DNA from: Nitrosophilus labii
Lineage (GTDB): Bacteria > Campylobacterota > Campylobacteria > Campylobacterales > Nitratiruptoraceae
Reading direction: 5' to 3'
Length of the DNA: 64,000 nt
Assembly (NCBI RefSeq): GCF_014466985.1
Contig: NZ_AP022826.1
Span: 1,612,001 to 1,676,000 of the forward strand
Position numbers and translations under genes: made by a program. Below are positions 4,276 to 21,453 of the stretch, one piece after another; within the stretch, counting starts at the first letter, position 1, and each line of letters begins with the position of its first letter. The notes beneath the pieces are model-generated. The model was given only the letters and a program-made list of their open reading frames with translations, had not been told where the DNA came from and searched no databases.

Positions 4276-6147
4276 TCACACAATATTAATCGGATCCATA
4301 TCAACTTCTGTTAGCTCGATTTTTGATCTATTTATGGCGTTTATCAAAGCTTTTGCCAAATCACTTCTTAAAATTATGTTATATCTGTATCTCCCCGCTA
4401 TCTTCTCTATAGGAGCTTCTCCAAAACCCACTATTTCTATATCTTCAAATCTTTTTAGTTTTTTTAACATCTCTTGCATACTCTCTTGCGCCTTTTTTCT
4501 ATCTTTGTGAGAAAAAAGGGCAATAGCTAGTCTCTTAAAGGGAGGATACAACCCTTTTCTAAACTCTATCTCATCTTTTAAAAACTTCTCAAAATCTAGA
4601 TAATTTTCAAAAAAATCCCGATTTAGAGTCTGCACCAAAACTTTTCCCTTCTCTTTTCTTCCGCTTCTTCCGGCAATCTGCAAAAAAAGAGATACCGCTT
4701 TCTCTCTTGCTCTAAAATCGGCCATATTTAAAACATAGTCTATTCCCAACACAACAGATAGCGCTACATCCGGATAATCATGCCCTTTTGAGAGCATCTG
4801 GGTACCAACTAAAATATCTATCTCTTTGTTTGCAAAACTTTTTAGAGTATTTTGAAGTTTTTTATGGGTAGTTATCTCATCTTTGTCAAATTTTGCAATT
4901 TTTGCATCTTTGAAAATCTCTCTAAGCTCTTTTACAATCTCGCTAGTGCCGATTCTATTGGCTTTGAGATTTTGCGAAGAGCAAGATGGACAATTTTTTG
5001 GTATCGGCTCGGCAAAGTTACAGTAGTGGCATACAAGCGCTCTTTTGTCAAAATGCAAACTCATACCCACATCGCAATAGGGACATTTAACCGCTTCGCC
5101 GCAATCAGAGCATATCAGATATTTAAAGTTTGCTCTTGTCGGTAAAAATATAATAGATTGCTTTTTATTTTTTAATGTCTCTTTTATATGCTCAATCACC
5201 AAAGACGTCAAAGATGTTAGCTCATTTTCCCAAACAAACTCTTTTTTTCCTTTATAAAAACTACCTTTGAGTCTAAAGTGAGGAAATTTTAAGTATGAGT
5301 TTAAAGAAGGCGTAGCGCTTCCCAAAACAACACTTATTCCCAGTTTTTTTCCAAAATAGATAGCCAAATCTTTCGCGTTGTATCTAGGGCGGTTATGAGC
5401 TTTGTAACTATCATCATGCTCTTCATCCACCACAATCAAACCCAGATTTTCCATCGGCAAAAAAAGAGCGCTTCTAGGTCCCGCAACTATCTTCACTTTA
5501 CCACTATAGATATCTTCTAAAATCGCCTCTTTTTTCTTTTTGGATATTTTGCTGTGCCATATAGCCACACTTGTTCCAAAATACTCTCTTAGTCTCTCCT
5601 CCATTTGAGGAGTCAAAGAGATCTCTGGCATTAAAAATATCGCGCTTTTACCTTTAGCCAATATCTCTTGAAAATATCTCATATAAATTTGCGTTTTCCC
5701 GCTTCCCGTATCTCCAAAAAGCAAAGATATCTGATGAGATTTTATAAACTCTAATGCCTCTTTTTGTTCTGCAGATAGTTCAATTGTGGACTGCGTAATC
5801 GGTAACTGAGAATTGGTTGATAAATCTTTTTTTATTTTCAAATTTTTAGTTACAAATCTCTCTTTTTTAAAAGGAACAAAAAGGCCGAGCGCTTCGCCAA
5901 TAGAGCAAAAATAGTAAGTTGAGATAAACTTTGCAATCTCCATATAATTTTTAGGCAGATAAAATTCGGTTATATTCATTATCTCTTTGCACTCAAAAGA
6001 GGGCTTTTTGGTCTCTTTTAATATGTATCCTTTATATAGTCTCTTTTTTATCTCAACCTCGACTAAAGTTCCCACTTCTAAGGAGTCTTGATGGGAGTAT
6101 GTAAGCAACAGAGGTTTTTGGTTTATAGCTACGATGTAGTATCTCAT
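4276..6147 (-). CDS. priA: Primosomal protein N' (replication restart helicase PriA)
   Basis: A 623-residue superfamily 2 helicase. It has an N-terminal fork-binding domain (residues 1-105), the ATPase motifs GDTGSGKT (about 142), DEEHDDSYK and GSATPSLNSY, and a zinc-binding cysteine cluster (CSDCGEAVKCPYC, then CHYCNF and CPSC) inserted in the second helicase lobe. PriA recognises stalled forks and D-loops and reloads DnaB. It is shorter than the 732-residue E. coli protein, as usual in Campylobacterota. It overlaps the upstream 227-residue gene by four bases. The linker before the helicase core (STNSQLPITQST, about residues 109-121) is encoded by a stretch resembling the period-7 repeats. 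Confidence 0.95.
   Translation of the reverse strand: MRYYIVAINQKPLLLTYSHQDSLEVGTLVEVEIKKRLYKGYILKETKKPSFECKEIMNITEFYLPKNYMEIAKFISTYYFCSIGEALGLFVPFKKERFVTKNLKIKKDLSTNSQLPITQSTIELSAEQKEALEFIKSHQISLLFGDTGSGKTQIYMRYFQEILAKGKSAIFLMPEISLTPQMEERLREYFGTSVAIWHSKISKKKKEAILEDIYSGKVKIVAGPRSALFLPMENLGLIVVDEEHDDSYKAHNRPRYNAKDLAIYFGKKLGISVVLGSATPSLNSYLKFPHFRLKGSFYKGKKEFVWENELTSLTSLVIEHIKETLKNKKQSIIFLPTRANFKYLICSDCGEAVKCPYCDVGMSLHFDKRALVCHYCNFAEPIPKNCPSCSSQNLKANRIGTSEIVKELREIFKDAKIAKFDKDEITTHKKLQNTLKSFANKEIDILVGTQMLSKGHDYPDVALSVVLGIDYVLNMADFRAREKAVSLFLQIAGRSGRKEKGKVLVQTLNRDFFENYLDFEKFLKDEIEFRKGLYPPFKRLAIALFSHKDRKKAQESMQEMLKKLKRFEDIEIVGFGEAPIEKIAGRYRYNIILRSDLAKALINAINRSKIELTEVDMDPINIV
5785..5825. repeat. Possible period-7 repeat remnant inside priA
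   Basis: Within the priA coding sequence, heptamer-like words GTAATCG, GTAACTG, AGAATTG and GTTGATA follow each other in phase. The stretch encodes the linker between the N-terminal and helicase domains. The words resemble those of the intergenic arrays (for example AGTAATCAGTGA at 51,279), but the run is short and could be chance. Confidence 0.3.
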
Positions 6148-17648: not shown

Positions 17649-19106
17649 ATGGCAAGATTAGTCGTACTAGGAGCAGGTGTATCCGGACATACTGCTGCTA
17701 CTTTCGCAAAACATTGGCTTGGTGATAGTCATGAGGTAGTTGTAATCTCTCCTAACAGCAAATGGAACTGGATCCCTTCTAATATCTGGGTAGGTGTCGG
17801 TCAGATGACACCAGAGGACGTTGTTTTTGAATTGGCTCCCGTCTACCAAAAGGCTGGAATAGATTTTAAACAGGCAAAAGCGGTATCTATTCACCCCGAA
17901 GGCAAAAAAGAAAGTGAAAAACCATACGTTACTATAGAATATACCGATCCTTCAAAAAAAGGTGAAATAGAAGAGGTTGAATATGATTACTTGATCAATG
18001 CTACCGGTCCAAAACTAAACTTTGCGGCTACGCCTGGTCTAGGACCTGAACACAATAGCTTATCGGTATGTACATATCAACATGCGGCCGAAGCAAACGA
18101 TCATTTACAAATCGCGATAGAAAAGATGAAAAAAGGTGAAAAACAGAAATTCCTTATAGGTACCGGTCATGGAATGTGTACATGTCAAGGTGCGGCATTT
18201 GAGTATATATTCAATATCGAGCATGAACTAAGAAAAGCAGGAGTTAGAGATAAAGCCGAAATAAAATGGATATCAAATGAGCAATTTCTAGGAGATTTCG
18301 GTGTTGCAGGCCTACATATAAAATGGGGTGGACATATCGTTTCAAGTAAAGTTTTGGCAGAGTCGCTATTTGCCGAAAGAGGACTTGACTGGATTACAGG
18401 CGCTCACGTTAAAGAAGTTCAAAAAGGAAAACTCTCTTACGAACTCTTAGACGGTACAGAAGGAGAAGAAGAGTTTGATTTTGCAATGCTCATACCTCCG
18501 TTTAGCGGTGTAGGTCTTAAAGCATACGATAAAGAAGGAAACGATATTACCGATAAAGTATTTATGCCAAACGGCTTTATGAAAGTTGATGCCGATTACA
18601 CTCCAAAATCTTTTGAAGAGTGGAAAGGCGATGACTGGCCAAAATATTATCAAAACCCTGACTATCCGAATATGTTCGCAGTAGGTATTGCCTTTGCCCC
18701 TCCTCATCCAATAAGCAAACCGGCAAAATCTGTAAACGGTACGCCAATAACTCCGGCACCTCCTAGAACGGGTATGCCTTCGGGAATTATTGGTAAAACT
18801 GTAGCTCATAGTATAGTTGAGATGATTCAAGGCAAAGCCGATAAGCCTATGCATCATGCTTCTATGGCAGAGATGGGAGCTGCTTGTATAGCTTCAACAG
18901 GAAAAGGTCTGTTTGACGGAACAGCAGTTGCACTAACAGTTTATCCTGTTGTACCTGATTATGACAAGTATCCGGGAACCGGTAGAGATCCTGATTATAC
19001 TTTTGGTGAAATCGGACTTGCCGGACACTGGATCAAACATATACTACATTATATGTTTATGTGGAAAGCGCAACTTAAACCGGGCTGGACATTAATACCT
19101 GAATAA
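17649..19106 (+). CDS. sqr: Sulfide:quinone oxidoreductase
   Basis: A 485-residue flavoprotein of the SQR family. It has the N-terminal FAD-binding GxGxxG-type motif VVLGAGVSGHTAA, a second dinucleotide-type region at KFLIGTGHGMCTCQG, and redox cysteines in SVCTYQHA and MCTCQGAAFEY. SQR oxidises sulfide to polysulfide sulfur at the membrane surface and passes electrons to the quinone pool, feeding respiration. The tryptophan-rich C-terminus (HWIKHILHYMFMWKAQL) is a good candidate for membrane attachment. A strong GGGG ribosome site lies upstream. The SQR subtype cannot be fixed without alignment. A 57-residue gene follows. Confidence 0.9.
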   Translation: MARLVVLGAGVSGHTAATFAKHWLGDSHEVVVISPNSKWNWIPSNIWVGVGQMTPEDVVFELAPVYQKAGIDFKQAKAVSIHPEGKKESEKPYVTIEYTDPSKKGEIEEVEYDYLINATGPKLNFAATPGLGPEHNSLSVCTYQHAAEANDHLQIAIEKMKKGEKQKFLIGTGHGMCTCQGAAFEYIFNIEHELRKAGVRDKAEIKWISNEQFLGDFGVAGLHIKWGGHIVSSKVLAESLFAERGLDWITGAHVKEVQKGKLSYELLDGTEGEEEFDFAMLIPPFSGVGLKAYDKEGNDITDKVFMPNGFMKVDADYTPKSFEEWKGDDWPKYYQNPDYPNMFAVGIAFAPPHPISKPAKSVNGTPITPAPPRTGMPSGIIGKTVAHSIVEMIQGKADKPMHHASMAEMGAACIASTGKGLFDGTAVALTVYPVVPDYDKYPGTGRDPDYTFGEIGLAGHWIKHILHYMFMWKAQLKPGWTLIPE

Positions 19107-19206: not shown

Positions 19207-19380
19207 ATGGCTTACAAAGAGATTCAAAAAGATATTAAACCATATGACGGAAAAACTTTTGGAACAATGATACCAGGCCCTTTTCAAAGGTTCTTGAGAA
19301 CTTGTAAGATATGGCAGTTTATAAGATTTATTATAATCAACCTCAAAATGCTTAGAGTTGTTGCAAAAAGCCACAATTAA
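19207..19380 (+). CDS. 57-residue basic protein after sqr
   Basis: A short ORF with an excellent ribosome site (AAGGAG, then seven A) and a complete start and stop. It begins MAYKEIQKDIKPYDGKTFG, then TMIPGPFQRFLRTCKIWQF and a C-terminal hydrophobic, basic helix (IRFIIINLKMLRVV). The tail would bind a membrane surface. Codon use and the following hairpin support it as a real gene. I do not recognise a family. Its position suggests co-transcription with sqr and perhaps a role as a small partner or anchor of SQR; that is inference. Confidence 0.75.
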   Translation: MAYKEIQKDIKPYDGKTFGTMIPGPFQRFLRTCKIWQFIRFIIINLKMLRVVAKSHN

Positions 19381-19388
19381 GCATATTT

Positions 19389-19405
19389 AGGGGCTTTTTG
19401 CCCCT
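19389..19405 (+). terminator. Terminator-like hairpin after the sqr unit
   Basis: AGGGGC and GCCCCT form a 6-bp GC-rich stem around a TTTTT loop, nine bases past the stop codon. The trailing sequence TATTTCTTC is only moderately T-rich. Confidence 0.6.
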
Positions 19406-19438: not shown

Positions 19439-20224
19439 ATGGCAAAAATTTTAACCTATCCTGACAAGACACTGCTGCAAATTTCAGGTTTAGTTAGAGA
19501 TTTTAACGATATCTCCGTAAAAGAGACCATAGAGAAGTTAAAAAAGACTATTGAAGAAAACAATATCAAAGGTCTAAGCGCAATTCAGATAGGTATACCT
19601 AAAAGAATAATCGTCTTCAAAGATAAAAACCAAGAATTTGTAACAATGATAAATCCCGCAATTTTTGGAAAAAGCGGAAAACTTATCGATTCTACGGAGA
19701 GCGATGAGAGCTTACCCGATATTGAAGTAACAGTTAAAAGATATGACACTATAAAAATAATGTATCAAGATATAGACAAAAATGATAAATTCTTAACAGT
19801 AAGCGGAGATGAGGCTATATTTTTGCAAAGAAAAATAGATATGGCTTATGGCGGATATCTTTTTGACAAGTTAGACAAAAAGAAACAGAAAGAGTTTTTT
19901 AAACAGTACGGTTCCTACGGCGATACTTGTCCTAGTTATTTTGTAAAAGACAAAATAATAAAAGCTTTAAGATATACGCTAACCTTACATACTATTTTAT
20001 TGGTCGCTAGTCTCTTTTTTCAATTTGCAAAATTTGTTATAACATATAAAACTCCTATTTTTATATTAGAATTTGCTTGGGTAATTTTTTATGCATTATA
20101 TGCAAAATATGAGACCCAAAAATATAAAAACTGTACAAGCTGCCAAGGAGCAAATATTTTTGGCACAAGCGCCATATATTTGACAATAATCTTTACAATT
20201 TATATAATTGCCCTGTTTCTTTAA
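19439..20224 (+). CDS. Peptide-deformylase-like domain without metal site, fused to a membrane domain
   Basis: A 261-residue protein starting at the ATG seven bases after AAGGA. Residues 1-140 match peptide deformylase in outline: MAKILTYPDKTL at the N-terminus, KGLSAIQIG (residues 45-52, usually GxGLAAxQ), INPAI, DESLP (usually EGCLS, so the metal cysteine is Ser) and QRKIDMAYGGYLFD (usually QHEIDHLxGxLFID, so both metal histidines and the catalytic Glu are replaced). It cannot be a normal deformylase. Residues 180-260 hold three hydrophobic segments, with a CTSC pair (232-235) between the second and third. Function unknown. It sits between the sqr unit and a symporter. Confidence 0.75.
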   Translation: MAKILTYPDKTLLQISGLVRDFNDISVKETIEKLKKTIEENNIKGLSAIQIGIPKRIIVFKDKNQEFVTMINPAIFGKSGKLIDSTESDESLPDIEVTVKRYDTIKIMYQDIDKNDKFLTVSGDEAIFLQRKIDMAYGGYLFDKLDKKKQKEFFKQYGSYGDTCPSYFVKDKIIKALRYTLTLHTILLVASLFFQFAKFVITYKTPIFILEFAWVIFYALYAKYETQKYKNCTSCQGANIFGTSAIYLTIIFTIYIIALFL

Positions 20225-20244: not shown

Positions 20245-21453
20245 ATGAATAAAAAAGTGTTAAATTTAGAAAACTTAACACTACTTTCTATAATTTTAGG
20301 CGTAATTTTTGGCTACTTCTTTAAAGATTTAGCCCTTAACTTGAAAGTAATTGGCGACATCTACATAGCGCTTCTAAAAATGCTTATCATTCCGCTTGTT
20401 TTCGCATCAATTTTCATCGCCATTTTAGGGTTGAAAAGTAGCGATGATCTAAAATCGATAGGGTTAAAATCTTTTATATATTATCTCTCTACCACATCGC
20501 TAGCAGTTATTTTAGGGCTTATAGTAGTAAATATTTTCGATCCCGGCTCCAATATGCAGCTTCCACAAGATATCTCTTCGGATATTCAGCCAAAAGATGT
20601 AAATATAAACGATTTTTTACTCTCTTTCATACCATCAAACATATTTTACGCGTTTGCTAACGGGCAGATTTTGCCTATTATATTTTTTGCAATTATGTTT
20701 GCGATAGCAACTATGTATATTCAAAAAGATAAAAAAGAGACACTTTACAACTTTTTCGACTCCATAAACGACTCTATGATGGTTTTGGCAAAATGGATCA
20801 TAAATCTAACGCCAATAGGCGTATTTTTTCTTATTGCCTACACAATAGCCAAAAACGGGATAGATCCTTTGATAAATCTATACAGTTATGTTTTAACAGT
20901 ACTTTTTGCCCTATTTTTACATGCAGTTGTTACACTTGGAGCTATTTTGTATTTCATTACCAAAATAGATCCTATTACATATTTTACAAAAATCAAAGAG
21001 GCTTTGATGGTCTCCTTTTCAACAGCTTCAAGTTCAGCTACGCTGCCCGTTTCTATAGAAGTAGCAAAAACAAACGCCAATGTTGATAAAAAAGTAGCCG
21101 GGTTTGTCCTTCCTCTTGGAGCCACTATAAATATGGACGGAACCGCGCTTTATGAATCGATAGCAGTTATGTTTATAGCCAATATCAGCGGAGTGGAACT
21201 TACATTTGCTCAGCAAGTAACAATTTTTGTTACAGCAACTTTTGCCTCAATAGGCGCAGCCGGTATCCCAGGTGCCGGTCTTATCATGATGACTATGATA
21301 CTTGAGAGTGTAGGACTACCTGTCGAATATATAGCTTTAATCATTGCCGTAGATAGATTTTTGGATATGTTTAGAACCAGTATAAACGTCTGGGGAGATC
21401 TTATAGGTGCAAAAGTCGTTGATACTCTAGTTTTTCGCAAAACAAAGATTTAA
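20245..21453 (+). CDS. Dicarboxylate/amino acid:cation symporter (SLC1/DAACS family)
   Basis: A 402-residue membrane carrier of the glutamate/dicarboxylate symporter family. Signature elements are SSSATLPVSIE (the serine-rich HP1 tip), GATINMDGTALYE (the NMDGT motif that binds sodium and substrate) and GIPGAGLIMM (HP2). It would import glutamate, aspartate or C4-dicarboxylates with Na+ or H+. Sequence alone does not choose between GltP, GltT and DctA. A GGGGCGGGG stretch serves as ribosome site directly before the ATG. The gene is convergent with dnaQ. Confidence 0.92.
   Translation: MNKKVLNLENLTLLSIILGVIFGYFFKDLALNLKVIGDIYIALLKMLIIPLVFASIFIAILGLKSSDDLKSIGLKSFIYYLSTTSLAVILGLIVVNIFDPGSNMQLPQDISSDIQPKDVNINDFLLSFIPSNIFYAFANGQILPIIFFAIMFAIATMYIQKDKKETLYNFFDSINDSMMVLAKWIINLTPIGVFFLIAYTIAKNGIDPLINLYSYVLTVLFALFLHAVVTLGAILYFITKIDPITYFTKIKEALMVSFSTASSSATLPVSIEVAKTNANVDKKVAGFVLPLGATINMDGTALYESIAVMFIANISGVELTFAQQVTIFVTATFASIGAAGIPGAGLIMMTMILESVGLPVEYIALIIAVDRFLDMFRTSINVWGDLIGAKVVDTLVFRKTKI

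Follow-up and report, generated by a model that had tools for sequence, protein, structure and literature searches.

The 261-codon gene that follows the sulfide:quinone reductase gene (sqr) in the Nitrosophilus labii window (the whole stretch of 64,000 nucleotides analysed here) encodes what is best read as a catalytically dead, membrane-tethered deformylase fold, hereafter the pseudo-deformylase, which may in some form be accessory to the sulfide:quinone reductase (SQR) encoded upstream. Judging from sequence and predicted structure, we give this reading a probability of roughly 0.5. It is supported by the predicted fold, by the loss of the metal site in all 120 aligned members of the family, by the presence of a separate def gene, by dN/dS values of 0.10-0.12, and by linkage to and co-occurrence with sqr. 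Further support comes from a small ORF lying between the two genes, from a CxxC membrane protein that stands beside sqr in two other genomes, and from the distribution of Lys and Arg around the predicted membrane helices. The features of the locus are collected in Table 1.

Table 1. Features of the sqr/pseudo-deformylase locus, in window coordinates.
Feature	Position	Strand	Details
sqr, sulfide:quinone reductase	17649..19106	+	485 aa; best PDB match Aquifex SQR 3hyv
Small ORF between sqr and pseudo-deformylase	19207..19380	+	57 aa; AAGGAG upstream; present across loci
Terminator-like hairpin in the small ORF/pseudo-deformylase gap	19389..19405	+	Pattern scan, weak
Pseudo-deformylase ORF	19439-20224	+	ATG start; 261 aa
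Pseudo-deformylase domain, residues 1-150	19439..19888	+	Metal site lost: D89, R131, K132, M135
C164 codon (nearly invariant Cys immediately preceding the first membrane helix)	19928..19930	+	117/120 members
C-terminal membrane domain, residues 169-261	19943..20221	+	AlphaFold model, hydropathy, K+R distribution
Codons of C232-T-S-C235	20132..20143	+	Both Cys 120/120

The pseudo-deformylase ORF has the limits given in the original prediction, which was made from the sequence alone and described a deformylase outline at the N-terminus. Residues 1-150 matched Pfam PF01327 with 123.7 bits (cut-off 22.8) over model positions 1-155 of 156. AlphaFold2, run on an 82-sequence alignment, returned a model of the 261-aa protein with a pLDDT of 94.6 and a pTM of 0.79, whose best PDB matches in Foldseek were the H. 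pylori and E. coli deformylases (E 2e-13; TM 0.84 to the H. pylori enzyme). The predicted model thus shows the deformylase fold, and the proposed outline is borne out by all three results. Against the NCBIfam deformylase equivalog, the 261-aa protein scored 70.7 bits, under the cut-off of 103.95 bits. A normal peptide deformylase (PDF) does exist elsewhere in the same genome, separate from this gene; it lies at G000:C1:110902 and has the intact motifs EGCLS and QHEIDH. When the pseudo-deformylase was aligned to it, the metal Cys corresponded to D89, the first His to R131, the catalytic Glu to K132, and the second His to M135, confirming that all four residues are replaced, as had been claimed. 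E87, Q130, and D134, which flank the lost metal and catalytic positions, are retained, as is Q50.

The three C-terminal helices and the CTSC pair (C232/C235) of the original prediction were likewise recovered in the alignment and the AlphaFold model, which places the helices at residues 169-190, 204-228, and 230-260. The mean number of Lys plus Arg residues was 3.2 at positions 164-179 and 2.5 at 222-236, vs 1.3 at 193-206, a bias that by the positive-inside rule places the deformylase domain, C164, and the CxxC motif in the cytoplasm. We infer that the protein likely spans the membrane three times, holding its deformylase-fold domain on the cytoplasmic side, and that C164, C232, and C235 likely sit at the cytoplasmic face of the membrane.

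To define the family, a protein search was performed on 399 genomes of the order, and matches at E <= 1e-20 were obtained in 121 of them; one (G286) proved to be an intact deformylase and was set aside as a false positive. The members extracted and aligned numbered 120, all from Campylobacterota. Since a profile search added at least one genome (G131) that the single-sequence search had missed, any count of genomes lacking the pseudo-deformylase is a maximum. Orthologues with intact metal ligands were sought and none was found: the metal Cys, the second His, and the catalytic Glu were each present in 0/120 members, and the first His in 3/120. The commonest residue set at the four positions was T-R-K-Y (70 members), followed by D-R-K-M (20), the set of the window's own protein. 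Nine positions (P8, R20, N72, E87, R101, Q130, D134, C232, and C235) were invariant in the 82-sequence set. The retained fold and Q50, E87, Q130, and D134 would be compatible with a protein that is still active, as a deformylase or another kind of hydrolase, through an alternative site or metal set; however, with three of the four residues missing from every member and Arg or Lys usually occupying the site, such activity seems very improbable.

Comparison of the window gene with two relatives gave dN/dS values of 0.10 and 0.12; the gene is thus not undergoing decay. A tree of 40 deformylase domains placed the dead and the intact members on opposite sides of a single branch with 100/100 support; since the tree is unrooted, a single origin of the dead domain is likely, short of proof. 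That the gene is a decaying def duplicate might be suggested by the loss of its catalytic residues, but this reading is refuted by conservation and has practically no probability left: the protein is full-length in about ten families, it keeps its invariant residues, its dN/dS is near 0.1, and its dead domains fall on one side of the 100/100 branch. The description of a pseudoenzyme with a membrane domain and a CxxC motif, distinct from the housekeeping def, is supported, and the gene is under purifying selection. In a profile search beyond the order, conducted on a limited sample, none of the matches listed fell outside it, the weak ones (E about 1e-41) being short, PDF-only matches. On a plasmid of Sulfurovum mangrovi (L195, 5265-6080), the pseudo-deformylase is annotated as two CDS in different frames, which is a frameshift or sequencing error; both are named 'peptide deformylase'. 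RefSeq's use of that name for the member on a Sulfurovum plasmid is contradicted by the lost catalytic residues and could mislead annotation.

The protein encoded upstream matched Aquifex SQR 3hyv at E 9.9e-43 and the A. ferrooxidans-type SQR at E about 1e-32, together with Pyr_redox_2. Aligned with the Aquifex enzyme, it has Cys in all three redox Cys stretches (SICT/SVCT, SCFG/TCQG, and AICI/ACIA): C141, C177 (or C179), and C413. Considering that it scored 150 bits to the Aquifex type I SQR, vs 83 for a 390-aa SQR of the same genome, and that type IV groups with type I (PMC4584964), the comparison suggests a type IV enzyme, with type VI as the alternative candidate.

Whether the place beside sqr was chance or meaningful had been left open. 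Clustering of the neighbouring genes showed sqr to be directly upstream on the same strand in 93 of 118 loci (median gap, 238 bases) and to be the sole constant partner, although related genomes inflate such locus counts and the p-values drawn from them, and several loci come from incomplete assemblies. Since the linkage spans eight families, while the next gene downstream falls in 29 different clusters, the position beside sqr is not due to chance. This sqr was also present in 116 of the 121 genomes with a pseudo-deformylase match (Fisher p 4e-42, inflated by relatedness), and the organisms with the pairing are vent and sediment bacteria. The fusion is not always beside sqr, however, as 27 of the 120 aligned members lie elsewhere or lack upstream sequence. 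Those away from sqr belong mainly to family f7, where 2 of 16 loci show the linkage, and to second copies in family f17, in which 11 of 47 are unlinked and seven genomes carry two copies. Among the f17 copies off sqr, mostly second copies, are L074, L076, L078, L080, L084, L093, and L114, which have the same invariant residues.

The retention of the same residues in the unlinked f7 and f17 members argues against a role confined to SQR. The usual ligands of the deformylase fold are N-terminal formyl-Met peptides, and the pseudo-deformylase could conceivably be a general membrane receptor that recognises nascent chains or N-termini and is not specifically tied to SQR, its linkage to sqr reflecting inherited gene order or shared expression. 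Binding of N-terminal peptides and a part in membrane-protein quality control, both raised in the original prediction, are putative roles. We consider this rather unlikely: the linkage outlasts the change of nearly all other neighbours across eight families, and nearly all genomes with the pseudo-deformylase carry this sqr as well. Conversely, sqr and the small ORF occur without the pseudo-deformylase in up to 74 genomes, indicating that the pseudo-deformylase is not essential to SQR.

The small ORF is, with C164 and the strength of the sqr linkage, one of three points that this analysis adds to the original prediction. Nearly all linked loci have it between sqr and the pseudo-deformylase; an over-long ORF call masked the gap in four loci, and those genomes contain the small ORF. 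Its product is helical, with P, R, Q, F, and N invariant and C, K, S, and H nearly so; predicted alone, it gave a model of modest confidence (pLDDT 72) with helices at residues 25-32 and 34-55. It had no family match in Pfam (to E 10) or NCBIfam (to E 1). Among the 399 genomes, the small ORF was found in 193, sqr in 190, and both in 186. The small ORF also lay directly after sqr in 39 of 40 extra sqr regions, most of them taken from genomes in which no pseudo-deformylase had been detected. Most Campylobacterota retain the Cys of the small ORF whether or not the pseudo-deformylase is there, and as the ORF itself accompanies sqr in either case, it was dropped as a marker for that protein. Outside the phylum, Thiodictyon syntrophicum (Gammaproteobacteria) has the small ORF after the same SQR (tblastn E 2e-5), and Marivivens (Alphaproteobacteria) has a similar, weaker match in that position, sharing P, R, Q, RF, N, and K; both carry the annotation 'hypothetical protein'.

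Two further points tell against an accessory role in SQR function. Adjacency differs from function, and the hairpin in the gap may split the pseudo-deformylase from the small ORF, although the scan that detected it gave 2 overlapping matches vs 1.7 expected in shuffles. Farther downstream, the pseudo-deformylase gene contains, within its 3' end (window positions 20180-20208), a perfect sigma-70 consensus (TTGACA, 17, TATAAT), a short distance before a dicarboxylate symporter gene (20245-21453).

Two family f9 genomes (L202 and L203) have a different protein after sqr and the small ORF: it is about 98 aa long (about 5048-5357), has three hydrophobic stretches and a CTGC motif, matches the membrane domain only (E about 1e-7), and lacks C164. 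This arrangement shows that the CxxC membrane module can exist without the dead deformylase domain and still stand beside sqr. It also bears on the possibility that the pseudo-deformylase is a redox or metal subunit, in which C164 and the CxxC motif either coordinate a metal or an Fe-S centre or undergo disulfide cycling, so that the quinone pool or a cytoplasmic acceptor exchanges electrons or sulfane sulfur with SQR, and the deformylase domain is a mere scaffold. The occurrence of the module by itself, the conservation of the CxxC pair (120/120) and C164 (117/120), and the nearly invariant Cys of the small ORF would all be consistent with such a subunit. Yet only three Cys are available and a fourth ligand is not apparent, the L202/L203 version does without C164, and SQR by itself is known to reduce quinone. 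We regard this alternative as possible, though unlikely.

If the pseudo-deformylase is instead an accessory of SQR, its dead pocket, in which Arg and Lys mostly stand in for the metal ligands (QRKxDY), would bind and hold a ligand without cleaving it. The most plausible candidate ligand would be, on SQR or on the small protein, either a chain N-terminus or an anionic group. The Cys-bearing membrane module might then provide a thiol, persulfide, or metal site for the SQR unit and serve in SQR assembly, membrane placement, or sulfur handling. More broadly, and at somewhat under even odds, the locus could represent an unreported SQR accessory system in which a small helical protein that goes with this SQR type across phyla and a CxxC membrane protein of Campylobacterota, which has mostly acquired a dead deformylase domain, jointly assemble SQR at the membrane or accept its sulfur. 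A survey of the open-licence literature found no deformylase pseudoenzyme, small SQR partner, or SQR accessory protein of this kind.

The pseudo-deformylase resembles Def (PF01327; the H. pylori and E. coli PDFs) in its fold over residues 1-150, in the motif L-(S/A)-A-x-Q, and in E87, Q130, and D134. It differs in that every metal and catalytic position is changed, a three-helix membrane domain and three conserved Cys are added, and its gene lies beside sqr, def remaining intact elsewhere. In keeping the fold of an enzyme while losing catalysis, in being membrane-bound, and in the binding or chaperone role proposed, it is similar to the iRhoms, which are membrane pseudoproteases; the iRhoms have another fold, organism, and pathway, and the role suggested here is putative. 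SQR, for its part, is usually described as a stand-alone monotopic flavoprotein, whereas the SQR considered here, a member of the family with its conserved Cys and the constant neighbour of the pseudo-deformylase, is accompanied by both a small ORF and a membrane protein.

SQR is a central entry point for electrons from sulfide in vent and sediment Campylobacterota and is usually treated as acting alone. The small protein that comes after SQR across phyla, together with the membrane pseudo-deformylase that in most cases accompanies SQR, suggests that subunits or assembly factors of SQR may have been overlooked, and the turning of a deformylase into a binder would, if true, be an unusual fate for this fold.
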